A stretch of 6,967 nt of DNA, from positions 1 through 6,967 of the forward strand of contig JAICWX010000399.1 of the NCBI GenBank assembly GCA_025934635.1. The letters are read 5' to 3'. Under the pieces are notes generated by a model. It searched no databases. It was not told the origin of the DNA and saw only the letters and a list, made by a program, of their open reading frames with translations. This document shows, piece after piece, positions 2,924-6,967 of this stretch (position 1 is the first letter of the stretch; each line of letters starts with the position of its first letter). The translations under genes and the position numbers were made by a program. The stretch is from Streptosporangiaceae bacterium. GTDB lineage: Bacteria > Actinomycetota > Actinomycetes > Streptosporangiales > Streptosporangiaceae.

Positions 2924-4348
2924 CTACGACCGGTAGCAGTAGGAGTCCGAGGATGCGTCACCGCCCTGCAGCCGGACCTGGTGCACCCGCAGGCCGCGGA
3001 AGTCGTCGCCGCGCGGGAAGAACCGCTCGTCGACCGTCAGCCCGCCGCCCGCGGCCGGGTCCGTGTCGATCTTGGCGAACCAGCTGCCCACGCCGTCCGG
3101 GTAGAACTGGTCGTCCCACGCCCCGTACAGCGAGTTGGTCACGTAGATCCGCCGGCCGTCCCGGCTGACCTCCACCATCTGCGGGCCGCCCGCCAGCCGC
3201 TCGGACGGCGAGGCGGGGTGCGGCACCCGGCCCGTGATGCCGCCGAGCCGGGCCGAGCCCACCTCGCGCGGGTGCGCCGGGGCGCTCACGTCGAACTGCT
3301 TGAGCTCGCCGGTGCCCCAGCAGGAGACATACAGGAACTGGTCGTCGACGGACAGGTTGATGTCGGTGACCAGCGGCGGCACCGCGCCGAACGGCTTGAG
3401 CGCGGGCGGCAGGTCGTCGGCGTCCGCGGGCTCGGCCGGGATCGTGATCACCTTGTCCGCGCGCCAGCTCCCGTCCTGGCGGCTCCACCGCCACACCGAC
3501 GCGGACAGGTCCTCGGTGCTGACCACCACGCCGACGAATCCCCAGGTCGCCTCGGGGTCGTGCGACGGGCGCAGCTCCAGCGCCATCTGGTGCTGCGCGC
3601 CCAGGTCCACCGTCTGCTGCAGCTTGCCCGCGGCCAGGTCCCAGAAGTGCAGCCGGTGCCCGTACTGCTGGCCGAGGAGCAGCTCGGGGTTGACCCCGTC
3701 CTCGATCATCGACGGGGTACCCCACTCGCTGGTGATCAGCGTGTTCTGGTTCAGGTGCCACCAGGCGTCGTAGGCCAGGTACTGGTCGCCGCGGTCGGTC
3801 TCCCAGGCGCGGAGCACGTCGAAGGTGTCGTGGTCGAGCAGGGCGATGCCGCCCGGGCCCTCGGCCCCGTTCGCGCCGCCCAGGCAGGACAGGAAGATGC
3901 CGTCCGGGCCGCAGTGCAGCGTGTGCGGGCGGGAGTAGCCCGCCTTCGCCGCCAGCTCGGCCGCGGTGATGGTCTTGGCCAGCACCGGCTGCCGCGGGTC
4001 CGGGTGAGTGTCGTAGACGTGGATGTTGGACGAGCGCAGGCCGGGAAGCAGCAGGTAGCGGCGCTGCAGGCCGTCGGTGTCGTGCCCGGCGTGCGCGAAC
4101 GCGCTGCTGCACGCGTTCCACCCGAAGTGGTGCAGCTCGTCGCCGCGGGTGGGCAGGTCGGCCCAGCCGACCACGGTGCCGTACCCGGGCGAGGCCGGGT
4201 CGGTGTCGAGCACGGTCAGCGCGTCCGGCCGCTGCCCGGCCCGGTCGAACGCGACCACGTAGGCCAGCTGCTCGGGCGGCGCCCCGATCGCGGCGGCCGG
4301 GCTGCGGTAGAAGGTCGGGTCGATGTCGTGGCCCGCGGAATCACCCAT
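2924..4348 (-). CDS. SBP56-family selenium-binding protein / methanethiol oxidase
   Basis: This is a complete 474-residue protein, colinear with human SELENBP1 (472 residues) and bacterial MtoX. Family members oxidise methanethiol with O2 to formaldehyde, H2S and H2O2, using copper. Conserved blocks: ELHHFGWNACSS (71-82), SRPHTLHC (139-146), LITSEWGTPSMIEDGVNP (204-221), DINLSVDDQFLYVSCWGTGEL (329-349, only part conserved), AGGPQMVEVSRDGRRIYVTN (386-405), AWDDQFYPDG (410-419) and the C-terminal VHQVRLQGGDASSD (454-467). His73, His74, His142, His145 and His455 are candidate metal ligands. The human selenium-binding Cys57 aligns with Gly57 here. No signal peptide is present, so the protein is probably cytoplasmic. 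GAGGAG (4355-4360) sits 6 bases before ATG 4346-4348. The gene starts 24 bp after the stop of the decayed monooxygenase, as in an operon. It looks intact while the genes upstream are broken. Confidence 0.93.
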   Translation of the reverse strand: MGDSAGHDIDPTFYRSPAAAIGAPPEQLAYVVAFDRAGQRPDALTVLDTDPASPGYGTVVGWADLPTRGDELHHFGWNACSSAFAHAGHDTDGLQRRYLLLPGLRSSNIHVYDTHPDPRQPVLAKTITAAELAAKAGYSRPHTLHCGPDGIFLSCLGGANGAEGPGGIALLDHDTFDVLRAWETDRGDQYLAYDAWWHLNQNTLITSEWGTPSMIEDGVNPELLLGQQYGHRLHFWDLAAGKLQQTVDLGAQHQMALELRPSHDPEATWGFVGVVVSTEDLSASVWRWSRQDGSWRADKVITIPAEPADADDLPPALKPFGAVPPLVTDINLSVDDQFLYVSCWGTGELKQFDVSAPAHPREVGSARLGGITGRVPHPASPSERLAGGPQMVEVSRDGRRIYVTNSLYGAWDDQFYPDGVGSWFAKIDTDPAAGGGLTVDERFFPRGDDFRGLRVHQVRLQGGDASSDSYCYRS

Positions 4349-4372: not shown

Positions 4373-5348
4373 CTAGCTACCAGCCATGCTAACCACGGGG
4401 GCCCGGGATTCCCCGAACACGTTCTCCGGCCGCGGGATCCCGTAGTGCTCGCGCAGCGTCCGCCCGGTGTACTCGGTGCGGAACACCCCGCGCCGCCGCA
4501 GGAGCGGGATCACGTGGTCGGTGAAGGCCTCGAGCCCGGACGGCAGGACCGGCGGCATCACGTTGAACCCGTCGGCCGCGCCCGCCTCGGCCCACTCCAC
4601 GATGGTGTCCGCCACCTGCTCGGGCGTCCCGGCGAAGGTGCGGTGGCCGCGGCCGCCGCCGAGCCGCCCGATGAGCTGGCGCACCGTGCGGCCGTCCCGC
4701 CGGGCCAGCTCGGTGATCAGCTGGAAGCGGCTCTGCGCGCCCTCGACCGGCGGCCGGGTGAACACCTCCTCCGGCCGCCCGCGGTCCAGCTCGAGCCGCT
4801 CGGCCGGCAGCTCGAGCACCTTGGCCAGCTGGGCGGTGAACACCGCCTCGGCGTACCGGGCCGCGAACTCCCGGCCGTCGGGGGATGAGCCCGCCTGGAC
4901 GAGCAGCGGGCGCCCCTGCGGTGACCTGGGTAGACGCCCGCCGCCTTGTCGCCGACCTCCGCGCCGTCCTCCCAGCTGTCCCACAGCCGGATCGACACAC
5001 CCGTCCTACGCTGAACCCAGCCTGGCAGCGGTTGTCGTCGAGCCCGAAGTTCTGCGCGGCCGCCTGGGTGGCCGTGGTGACGATGTTCCAGCCGGCCCGC
5101 CCGCCGCTGATGTGGTCCAGCGAGGCGAACCGGCGGGCCAGGTTGTACGGGTGGTTGTAGCTGGTCGCCCCGGCCAGCGCGGTGAGCAGGACCGTCGGCT
5201 CCAGCGCGCCGCCCGGACGGGACCTGGCGTTACCCCACAGCGCCGGGCCGTCGGCCAGGAAGATCGAGTCGAAGGTGCCGCGTTCGGCGGTCCGGGCCAG
5301 GTTCGTCCAGTACGACAGGTCCAGGCTGGCGGACGGGTCGCTTTCCGG
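4373..5348 (-). pseudogene. Decayed LLM-class flavin-dependent monooxygenase (NtaA/SnaA/DszA/DmoA type)
   Basis: The family uses reduced FMN and O2 to oxidise small substrates, often organosulfur or nitrogen compounds. Three blocks in three frames are homologous. Block 1 (about 5031-5348) has SDPSASLDLSYW, FDSIFLADGPALWG, GGALEPTVLLTALAG, RRFASLDHISGGRAGWN and NFGLDD. Block 2 (about 4930-4998) has SIRLWDSWEDGAEVGDKAAGVY (split by frame from its neighbours). Block 3 (4373-4930) has PRSPQGRPLLVQAGSSPDG, EAVFTAQ, VEGAQSRF, GHRTFAGTPEQVADTI, GAADGFNVMPP and FRTEYTGRTLREHYGI, ending at TAG 4373-4375. Losses visible against the family pattern: the N-terminus; an in-frame gap after ALAGAT (about 5163); a frame-changing loss at about 4999-5030; a frame-changing loss at about 4930; and an in-frame gap between FTAQ and LAKVLEL (about 4826-4834). 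About 313 codons remain of a usual length near 450, so the enzyme cannot be functional. Confidence 0.88.
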
Positions 5349-5640
5349 CAGCCGACAGCTCGCCGGTCACCTCGCGGTCGAGCCCCGCCAGCGCGCGGAG
5401 CAGCGTGGACTTGCCCGAGCCGCTGCGCCCGATCAGCGCGATGAACTCGCCGGGCGCGATGTCCAGGTCGAGCCCGTCCAGCACCGCGCGGTCGCCGAAC
5501 CGGCGGGTCAGCCCGCGTACCGAGGCCGCCGCGCCCGGGCTGACGTCGCCGGACGCGATCCCGCCGGGGCCGGCCCCGTTGCGCCTGGTGCCTTCCGCGG
5601 CCGGAGCGGAACCGTTCACTGTCCGAACTCGCGGCGCCAT
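5230..5640 (-). pseudogene. Truncated SsuB-like ABC transporter ATP-binding protein
   Basis: ATG 5638-5640 follows AAGGAGG (5649-5655) at 8 bases, and the start overlaps the permease 3' end by 25 bp, so translation was coupled. After a 40-residue Ala/Gly-rich leader come VRGLTRRFGDRAVLDGLDLDI (41-61, only part conserved), the Walker A motif GRSGSGKST (71-79) and LLRALAGLDREVTGELS (80-96). This matches aliphatic-sulfonate/taurine ATPases of the SsuB/TauB type. Homology stops near position 5350. The frame then reads through antisense-like monooxygenase sequence to a stop at 5230, giving 136 residues instead of about 240-270. The Q-loop, ABC signature, Walker B and H-loop are gone, so it cannot work as a transporter ATPase. 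One deletion evidently removed the rest of this gene and the start of the monooxygenase. Confidence 0.85.
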
Positions 5641-6347
5641 GCCAGTGCCCTCCTTTGCAGCAGGCGCACCGCGCCGTCGAGCAGCAGGCCGAGAATGGCG
5701 TAGACGATAAGGGCCACCATGATCACGCTGTTGTTCAGGAACTGCTGCGCCTGAGTGATCATGAAACCGAGGCCGCTGGTCGCGTTGATCTGCTCGCCCA
5801 CCACCAGGGCCAGGAGGGACGCGACCACGCTGAGCTGCAGCCCGGTGAGGGCCGAGGGCAGCGCGCCCGGCAGGACGATATGCCGGATTATCTCCCGCTT
5901 GCGCAGGCCGAGGACCTTGCCGAGTTCGTCCAGCTTGCTGTCCACGCCGCGGATGCCGGCGAAAGTGTTGAGGTACATCGGGAACAGCGCCGACAGCAGG
6001 ACGAACAGCACCTTGGGCAGCTGCCCGATGCCGAACCAGACGATGAACAGCGGGATCAGCCCGAGCAGCGGGACGCTGCGCAGCGCCTGCAGGATCGGGT
6101 CGGCGGCCAGTTCTCCCACCCGGCTGAGCCCGCTGACGATCGCCAGCAGCACCCCGATGGCGACGCCGAGCGCGAAGCCGATAGCCCAGCGCTCGGCGGA
6201 AGCCAGCAGCGAGGCCTGCAGTGTCCCGTAGGTCGGCGAACTGGTGGTGACCAGCGTGTACGCCTCGTGGGCGATGATGGCGGGCGAGGCCAGCTTGCTG
6301 GCCGGGAGCAGGCCGGTGCTGCTGGCCAGCTGCCACAGGGCGACCAC
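5616..6347 (-). CDS. SsuC-like ABC transporter permease (start uncertain, probably 5'-truncated)
   Basis: The 243 residues from GTG 6345-6347 form a binding-protein-dependent permease with about six membrane segments. Clear ones are 55-72 (AIGFALGVAIGVLLAIVS), 92-107 (VPLLGLIPLFIVWFGI), 113-126, 170-184 and 207-224. The cytoplasmic EAA-type loop is ELGKVLGLRKREIIRHIVLP (141-160). Its nearest relatives are sulfonate, taurine and organosulfur importers. The frame is open upstream to 6566 and encodes RRFAGRGWFRVISPIAVV, which looks like native SsuC N-terminus and first membrane segment. That extension has no ATG, GTG or TTG, and GTG 6347 has no ribosome site. The native start was probably lost in a deletion. 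No substrate-binding protein gene is present in the window. The protein ends ERRALAWRREFGQ-like (RRALAWRREFGQ) over the ATPase start. Confidence 0.85.
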   Translation of the reverse strand: MVALWQLASSTGLLPASKLASPAIIAHEAYTLVTTSSPTYGTLQASLLASAERWAIGFALGVAIGVLLAIVSGLSRVGELAADPILQALRSVPLLGLIPLFIVWFGIGQLPKVLFVLLSALFPMYLNTFAGIRGVDSKLDELGKVLGLRKREIIRHIVLPGALPSALTGLQLSVVASLLALVVGEQINATSGLGFMITQAQQFLNNSVIMVALIVYAILGLLLDGAVRLLQRRALAWRREFGQ

Positions 6348-6451
6348 GGCGATCGGGCTGATGACGCGGAACCAGCCCCGTCCGGCGAACCGCCGGGCCT
6401 GCCGCGCCTGCCGCGCCGCGGGCCGTTGCGGGCCCCCGGCTCGCGCGAAGG

Positions 6452-6480
6452 CGCCCAGCGCTTAGGCAGCGCGCTGGGCG
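6452..6480 (-). terminator. Hairpin over the leader-peptide stop codon, candidate attenuator
   Basis: CGCCCAGCGC (6452-6461) and GCGCTGGGCG (6471-6480) form a perfect 10-bp stem with a 9-base loop. On the minus strand the loop carries the leader's TAA stop (6462-6464). The upstream arm begins about 14 bases after the single Cys codon (6495-6497) of the leader, so ribosome position there would decide whether the stem can form. No U-tract follows. It fits a translation-controlled attenuator; the mechanism is inferred. Confidence 0.5.
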
Positions 6481-6563
6481 GCGCGGGCGGGTTGACAGAT
6501 GGCGCTGGCTTGCAGGCCGTGATCCGTGTAAAGGCGCGCTACGAGCGGCTCGGAATGACCCAT
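6462..6563 (-). CDS. 33-residue cysteine/sulfur-type leader peptide
   Basis: This is a short open frame, ATG 6561-6563 to TAA 6462-6464. Its core, VARLYTDHGLQASAIC followed by QPARAAQ, resembles the small leader peptides annotated upstream of sulfur-assimilation genes in actinobacteria (pattern roughly RLHVD...R.ASA.C, with the Cys near the C-terminus). Here Tyr stands where His is common. In mycobacteria such leaderless Cys-containing short ORFs act as cysteine-responsive attenuators. The promoter predicted just upstream places transcription start on the A of the ATG, so this one is probably leaderless too. It is followed by a hairpin over its stop codon and then by the sulfonate-type importer genes. 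The peptide itself is not expected to have another function. The family resemblance is from memory, but the promoter, position and Cys all agree. Confidence 0.72.
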   Translation of the reverse strand: MGHSEPLVARLYTDHGLQASAICQPARAAQRAA

Positions 6564-6569
6564 GGCACT

Positions 6570-6597
6570 ACCCTAGGCCGGTTACCTACTTTGTCAA
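6570..6597 (-). promoter_or_regulatory. SigA-type promoter of the sulfur operon (leaderless)
   Basis: On the minus strand a perfect TTGACA -35 (6592-6597) is followed after 16 bases by TAGGGT (6570-6575), a weak -10. Six bases separate the -10 from the leader ATG. The expected start of transcription is therefore 6563, the first base of the ATG. The perfect -35 in an AT-rich island is the strongest promoter signal in the window. Confidence 0.6.
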
Positions 6598-6613
6598 TAG
6601 ACAATATTGACAA
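6591..6613. promoter_or_regulatory. 23-bp operator-like inverted repeat overlapping the -35 box
   Basis: TTGTCAATA (6591-6599) and TATTGACAA (6605-6613) are exact 9-bp reverse complements around the spacer GACAA. The spacer itself pairs with the left TTGTC, so the element contains three TTGTC/GACAA half-sites 9 bases apart. The left arm contains the -35 hexamer, so a bound repressor would block RNA polymerase. The regulator is not identifiable from this window. Confidence 0.65.
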
Positions 6614-6626
6614 AGCCTGTATGGTG

Positions 6627-6653
6627 AACCGTCGGCCGTGCCGCGGGCCGGTT
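6627..6653 (-). terminator. Candidate terminator hairpin after the right-edge gene
   Basis: On the plus strand AACCG (6627-6631) and GGCC (6634-6637), separated by a 2-base bulge, pair with GGCCGGTT (6646-6653). The loop is 8 bases. It begins at the stop codon of the right-edge gene on the minus strand and lies before the next promoter. There is no U-run, so the call rests on position and stem. Confidence 0.35.
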
Positions 6654-6967
6654 TAAATGAAGCTGTTGTCGCCGGCCAGGGCCCCGACCCAGGCGAACGC
6701 GAGCAGGTTCGTCCCGTACCTGGGCGGATGCAGGGTGATCGCGGTGACGCGGCCGTGGTCGTACCTCTCGTAGGACCCGCAGAAGCTGACCACCCGCCCG
6801 CCGGACGGGCTGCTCCACAGCGCGACGCACACCATGCCAGGGAAGGCCGAGGTGACCGGGGGCGCCGCGTTCGCCAGGAACTGCCCGGTGCGAGCAGAGT
6901 ACTCGGCCACGCTGGTGGTATACCGGCTGCCCTGCCGAACGGACCGAGTGACCAGCACCTTGGACCC
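6653..6967 (-). CDS. C-terminal end of an unrecognised protein (5' end outside window)
   Basis: The frame is open from the right edge to TAA 6653-6655, giving 105 residues. Features visible are VAEYSARTGQFL, then VALWSSPSGGRVVSF, then VTAITLHPPRYGTNLLAFAWVGALAGDNSFI in part. Alternating hydrophobic and polar stretches with S/T-x-R-T-G turns suggest beta-propeller-like blades. VLWSSPSG-type endings occur in actinobacterial proteins with WD40-like or membrane-anchored propeller regions. This is a weak resemblance and no function is assigned. It is transcribed in the same direction as the sulfur operon but is separated from it by a possible hairpin and a strong promoter. Confidence 0.6.
   Translation of the reverse strand, partial: GSKVLVTRSVRQGSRYTTSVAEYSARTGQFLANAAPPVTSAFPGMVCVALWSSPSGGRVVSFCGSYERYDHGRVTAITLHPPRYGTNLLAFAWVGALAGDNSFI

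Follow-up and report, generated by a model that had tools for sequence, protein, structure and literature searches.

Does the 33-codon open reading frame (ORF) that lies ahead of SsuC/SsuB-type genes in a Streptosporangiaceae bacterium encode a genuine cysteine leader peptide, and if so, of what kind is it and how might it act? The DNA analysed, referred to here as the window, is a stretch of 6,967 nucleotides of contig JAICWX010000399.1 (assembly GCA_025934635.1), and its features are collected in Table 1. Read on the minus strand from 6563 to 6462, the ORF specifies MGHSEPLVARLYTDHGLQASAICQPARAAQRAA and ends in the stop codon TAA; residues 10-23 form the core RLYTDHGLQASAIC. A sequence-only reading had noted this Cys leader ORF between a promoter and SsuC/SsuB-type genes, an arrangement that is upheld by the ORF itself, by its first rank in a profile search and by three orthologues.

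Table 1. Location of the leader, its promoter and the genes behind it in the window.
Feature	Position	Strand	Basis
Leader ORF, 33 codons, divergent cysteine leader peptide	6462..6563	minus	ORF list, profile rank, dN/dS, orthologues
Cys23, sole Cys codon of the leader, TGT	6495..6497	minus	sequence and family comparison
-10 box TAGGGT, TANNNT type	6570..6575	minus	sequence; motif as in PMC8079986
-35 box TTGACA, begins 34 nt upstream of ATG	6592..6597	minus	family comparison
Perfect 11-bp inverted repeat covering the -35 box, candidate operator	6589..6615	no strand	repeat search
10-bp perfect hairpin around leader stop codon, without T run behind	6452..6480	minus	not aligned in L001
Deletion junction	6401..6417	minus	15 nt between blocks that lie 167 nt apart in L001
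ssuC-type permease core, 243 aa from GTG, start region missing	5616..6347	minus	family models, relatives
ssuB-type ATPase gene, 5' part, cut after about the first 100 residues, end approximate	5350..5640	minus	models, L002 comparison
NtaA/DmoA-type monooxygenase gene remains, pieces in three frames	4373..5363	minus	models, L002 comparison
SBP56-family gene, apparently intact	2924..4348	minus	PF05694, 616 bits

The profile was built from eight typical leaders of other genomes, of which four were scored against the family model NF042934 and pass it. It placed the window leader first, at 27.8 bits and an E-value of 6.4e-9, among 106 small ORFs that run from start to stop codon in the window, nested starts included; the next ORF scored 4.3 bits, and the best scores in 20 dinucleotide shuffles of the window ranged from 3.0 to 11.7 bits. 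This test is not wholly independent, since the searches that found the eight leaders included the window leader. A search of named genomes gave 486 relatives of the ssuC protein, and 80 loci were kept. Leader orthologues lie between a like promoter and ssuC in L001 (a MAG named Nocardiopsis sp., 88% identity; leader MGHPEPLVARLYTDYGLQSSATCPLARAARH) and in L002 (a Streptosporangiaceae MAG, 84% identity; leader MGRPQPLVARRYADFGMQSSGTC), and a third, in L083, stands ahead of an ssuC-ssuB pair that is itself broken. The orthologues of L001/L081, L002/L082 and L083 have a promoter of the window's kind. Over codons 1-23, dN/dS was 0.10-0.29 in five of the six orthologue pairs, the sixth being saturated at synonymous sites. 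Conservation across the four orthologous leaders is concentrated before the Cys, and the tail behind it varies from 0 to 10 residues. Judging from these substitution patterns, codons 1-23 are under purifying selection at the level of the peptide. Long unrelated frames (L122, L123 and L126) were left out of the leader alignment, the profile and selection set and the 33-leader set used below, and L087 and L113 were additionally left out of the leader alignment. Another reading would make the ORF a misread start of the ssuC gene, severed from the rest by a stop codon, as it shares the ssuC frame with one stop between them. However, the ssuC N-termini of relatives are unrelated to it, and leader and ssuC are separate ORFs in both L001 and L002, which contradicts this reading and leaves it with next to no probability.

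By these comparisons the 33-codon leader ORF is real, and its start is placed where the promoter predicts the start of the transcript. TTGACA, a 16-bp spacer and TAGGGT would set the first transcribed base at the A of the leader ATG, and the earlier prediction of a transcription start at this ATG fits that geometry. A consensus promoter scan of the window did not include the leader promoter among its listed sites, because TAGGGT matches just three of the six bases of TATAAT. In S. lividans, according to the available text of PMC8079986, TANNNT is the -10 motif of promoters, the -35 element is weak and leaderless transcripts make up 17%. When the ATG or GTG closest to the profile match is counted as the leader start, the first base of TTGAC lies 34-37 nt before it in 26 of 33 leaders from the window's branch and its neighbours. 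In the wider set drawn by NF042934, it stands 30-40 nt before an in-frame start in only three of 30 leaders, and therefore the -35 rule is one of the window's branch and its neighbours and does not extend to the whole family. TANNNT begins 11-15 nt before the in-frame start in 35 of 60 leaders of the wider set, compared with 14, 5, 1 and 0 of 60 when the position was shifted by 15, 20, 25 and 30 nt, respectively. A weak promoter-like site on the plus strand (6598-6625) overlaps the inverted repeat that covers the -35 box. The pattern CCTA-N7-11-TAGG was tried as a general operator and dropped, being present at only five of the 33 leader promoters.

We also examined the family to which the leader may belong. 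None of the NCBIfam and Pfam models recognised it, and the NCBIfam search, with NF042934 (cut-off 27 bits) among the models, returned no family at E<=10; the leaders of L081 and L083 did not match this model either. Two generic leaders served as controls and scored 42.0 and 41.2 bits. Four of ten leaders scanned passed (L120, 33.6 bits; L119, 32.8; L114, 30.2; L125, 27.4), L115 fell just under the cut-off with 25.7 bits, three were intermediate at 12.4-18.8 bits, and L083 and L084 gave no match. Since the window leader falls outside the cut-off, we file it as a variant of the kind and not as a member of NF042934. Comparison with leader-peptide families, as the sequence-only reading had suggested, is divided: the NF042934 model gives no match, and the profile of eight leaders does.

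The likeness to NF042934, a cis_reg_atten family described as 'putative leader peptide', lies in the core [RK]-x-[HY]-x-D-x8-C with one or few Cys near the end, in TGT at the core Cys and, in several cases, in sulfur genes downstream. An Asp nine residues before the final Cys (D-x8-C), which is our own description of the family core, is present in all 33 leaders, the window's included. Unlike that kind, the window leader escapes the model, reads Y-T-D-H-G-L-Q where typical neighbours have H-V-D-L-R-R-Q, and keeps a 10-residue tail. Close orthologues (E<1e-10) occur in three of 345 genomes of the order and in one of 394 drawn from the class, namely G002 itself, while in another sample of the class, with 296 genomes, NF042934 matched 215 at E<=0.01 and 177 with scores over the cut-off, and it matched none of 14 controls. 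Few close orthologues beside so wide a spread show the window leader to be a narrow and divergent offshoot of a widespread family. An alignment of three leaders gave 35 matches in 341 genomes of the family of the L002 genome (E<=0.01), and many of those examined carry ARLHVDLRRQASALC. As far as its residues can tell, the window leader is a variant of the known actinobacterial cysteine leader peptides of the NF042934 kind. The Tyr in place of His and the single Cys, earlier picked out as oddities, are both present, yet one Cys is the norm in the window's branch, and 10 of the 35 leaders aligned have Tyr at the His position. These 35 comprise leaders of the branch, its neighbours and the 394-genome class sample (L087, L137, L148, L152 and L154 were left out, and L164, L170 and L171 are without the core by the pattern used), and Tyr is enriched among them because the queries that drew them were largely Tyr-bearing.

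The core Cys of the window leader is encoded by TGT, yet three other window genes contain six TGC and no TGT. The same codon occupies this place in 30 of the 33 leaders of the branch and its neighbours, the exceptions with TGC being L083, with its broken operon, L112, and L113, where the frame that contains the core has 70 residues and is perhaps not a leader. In the overlapping set of 35, TGT is found in 32; third-position GC is 9% here and 49-100% at the other twelve core places. Leaders drawn by NF042934, the best 90 of the matches listed, have TGT at the core Cys throughout (30 of 30 and 60 of 60, the latter being 47 distinct peptides). Their other core Cys codons are TGC 38 vs. TGT 12 in the set of 30 and TGC 63 vs. 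TGT 2 in the set of 60, and the long genes at the first 30 loci hold 115 TGC and 24 TGT. Fisher tests on codon choice in the 35-leader and 30-leader sets ignore shared ancestry. In polycysteine leaders (n=11), the core codon is TGT in 11/11, TGC is found seven codons earlier in 11/11 and at the place just before in 9/10, and TGT recurs two codons before the core (7/7) and one, two and three codons after it (9/10, 9/11 and 5/7). Since TGT is usual at neighbouring places too, the rule is not confined to one codon in polycysteine leaders. None of the 30 bases behind the core codon is conserved above 82% in 60 leaders; therefore, a long RNA motif is unlikely.

In bacteria, a single tRNA-Cys with the anticodon GCA generally decodes UGC and UGU alike, the latter through wobble pairing. 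That TGT is nearly constant at the core Cys suggests that the sensor codon is fixed as UGU. We tentatively go further, with somewhat less than even confidence, and propose that one obligatory UGU, nine codons after an invariant Asp, is the sensor common to actinobacterial cysteine leaders and that UGC would blunt the response. The time taken to decode one wobble codon within a conserved nascent chain would then report the cysteine supply, which would explain how single-Cys leaders can work, and the window leader would be a divergent branch that kept the rule after losing the model consensus. The available portions of the literature searched on cysteine leaders do not mention the TGT rule, though Canestrari et al. 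2020 may do so. A different possibility is that of an arrest peptide, in which the conserved chain in the exit tunnel, and not slow decoding, halts the ribosome, the signal being cysteine or another sulfur metabolite. The fixed spacing of residues far from the Cys (D-x8-C in 33/33) would suit such a peptide, as would the conservation before the Cys in the four orthologues, but a fixed synonymous codon points to decoding, and a pure nascent-chain sensor would not need one. Arrest could also act together with codon decoding; as the explanation in its own right, it seems to us quite improbable.

The genes behind the leader were expected to form a sulfur importer operon. SsuC/SsuB-type genes do follow it, but this copy of the operon is damaged, and the start region of ssuC is gone. 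The names ssuC and ssuB are those of the best matches, with scores below the model cut-offs. The 167-nt interval of L001 holds the ribosome site, the start and the first codons of ssuC, and about 150 bp are missing in the window. Gene order is that of L002, whose operon is whole up to where the contig ends and consists of the leader, the ssuC permease, the ssuB ATPase, an ssuA-type binding protein (over the TIGR01728 cut-off), an NtaA/DmoA-type monooxygenase (over the TIGR03860 cut-off) and the start of an SBP56 gene, the last being 88% identical to the window SBP56. No ssuA was matched at its place in the window; the sole match was weak (24% identity) and lay in an Ala/Pro/Ser-rich frame at 11-658. 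Against the methanethiol oxidase model, the window SBP56 scored 108 of the 650 bits required, far below the cut-off. The window ssuC is the 243-aa core alone, whereas 114 of 120 listed relatives measure 292-313 aa, and many of the 120 have FSTSRLASAEG directly after the start residue. No ssuC relative was found in viral contigs. Without the ssuC start region, the usual action of the leader on this gene is impossible in this copy.

It is conceivable that the damage is an assembly fault and that the real operon is intact. The damage is nearly all deletions, the leftover pieces are 65-81% identical to L002, and a relative that is 99% identical over the 243-aa core (P0002) has the full N-terminus. 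However, a 3415-base contig yields an identical 243-aa protein, shortened alike (P0001), although the same reads may underlie both; P0004 and P0120, among the 120 listed relatives, are also 243 aa; and the separate locus L083 is broken too. We regard an assembly fault as rather unlikely. We think it similarly doubtful that the window leader is now functionless, a relict before a decayed operon. The missing ssuC start region, the cut ssuB and the broken monooxygenase would agree with this, but the leader retains its core residues and TGT, and the SBP56 gene is intact. Recent damage would give the same picture. Two further features lie on the far side of the SBP56 gene. Downstream of the operon and on the same strand, 2398-2865 encodes an aminoacyl-tRNA editing-domain protein, whose best NCBIfam match is the Cys-tRNA(Pro) deacylase YbaK, below the cut-off. 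Between this YbaK-like deacylase gene and an XerC/D-like recombinase gene is a 30-bp inverted repeat without spacer, 90% complementary (2320-2379), of which a 15-base piece, TGATCACGTGTTGTT, was found in 0 of 263 loci.

Of 113 ssuC places listed, 30 were examined, and six of these have a leader within 700 nt upstream. The six score 41-59 bits, two of them being known orthologues contained in the profile, against a maximum of 8.3 bits among 192 small ORFs of the antisense control. Related leaders stand ahead of ssuC-type, ssuA-type and SBP56 genes. A related leader whose core is RLHIDHGLAHSALC stands directly ahead of an SBP56 gene in L108 (1643-3055), a hint that SBP56 takes part in cysteine-controlled sulfur supply. 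The gene of a HEAT-repeat protein lies behind the L114 leader (L114 553-1443) and is a candidate for sulfur regulation; N-termini that resemble it by eye are found behind the leaders of L109, L117, L118 and L125.

We consider it likely that the window ORF encodes a divergent leader peptide with a single cysteine, of the same kind as the actinobacterial cysteine attenuators, and that it acts as follows. Transcription would begin at the leader ATG, as the promoter geometry implies, and the ribosome would load there. It would then translate the conserved 22-residue stretch and arrive at the single UGU Cys codon, a codon choice seen in the family comparison. By analogy with mycobacterial relatives, as far as the available accounts describe them, scarcity of charged tRNA-Cys would make the ribosome wait at UGU, and the waiting ribosome would lead to higher expression of the sulfur operon behind. 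In the window itself, the leader would either govern a crippled operon or be on its way to becoming a relict. In M. smegmatis, Cys ORFs of this type are attenuators that respond to cysteine, as PMC9031893 and PMC13236596 report with reference to Canestrari et al. 2020, and ribosomes are present on a mycobacterial cysteine leader, according to the accessible part of PMC4633059.

Several known systems bear comparison. The mycobacterial polycysteine attenuators (Ms5788A, NF042933; Ms4527A, NF042936) are likewise Cys leaders before sulfur genes and are leaderless, as promoter geometry would predict for the window leader. The window leader differs from them in having one Cys in 33 codons and no run, and it matches neither model; the L002 leader reaches 11.9 of 45 bits with NF042936. 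The likeness to mycobacterial leaderless Cys ORFs drawn earlier thus holds for kinship with actinobacterial cysteine leaders and for the leaderless geometry, but the nearest relatives are of the single-Cys NF042934 kind and not polycysteine. The actinobacterial cys leaders predicted in 2005 (PMC1262725, in the text available) are also ORFs before sulfur genes without an intrinsic terminator, but their Cys codons form runs close to the stop. The uORFC-8-2 motif before cysS of Rhodobacterales has likewise been proposed, from sequence comparison, as a ribosome-mediated cysteine attenuator, but according to the accessible text (PMC8632094) it has two tandem Cys codons, mostly UGC, and an intrinsic terminator.

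Behind the window leader, the search for an intrinsic terminator found 0 terminator-like sites in 4500-6967, unlike what a classical transcription attenuator would have. For cys leaders without terminators, the available part of PMC1262725 suggests Rho. The leader region shows no excess of RNA structure over shuffles (z -0.11), and an Rfam search of the window gave no match at the gathering score. Folding of L127, L128 and L083 revealed no release of the ribosome site that was consistent across the three, and therefore we do not claim a translational switch. The absence of an NF042934 match, of a terminator and of a folding signal, the damaged operon and the presence of a leader at only six of 30 ssuC loci were all counted against the attenuator explanation favoured here.

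Since the family model misses the window's branch, some cysteine-controlled operons of soil actinobacteria are left unannotated. The intact form of the operon, with a sulfonate-type importer, an NtaA/DmoA-type monooxygenase and SBP56, suggests by its family names that organic sulfur compounds, dimethyl sulfide and methanethiol perhaps among them, are used under the control of cysteine. The fixed TGT bears on how a single Cys codon can sense cysteine, and this tiny leader gene probably lets a soil actinobacterium do so.
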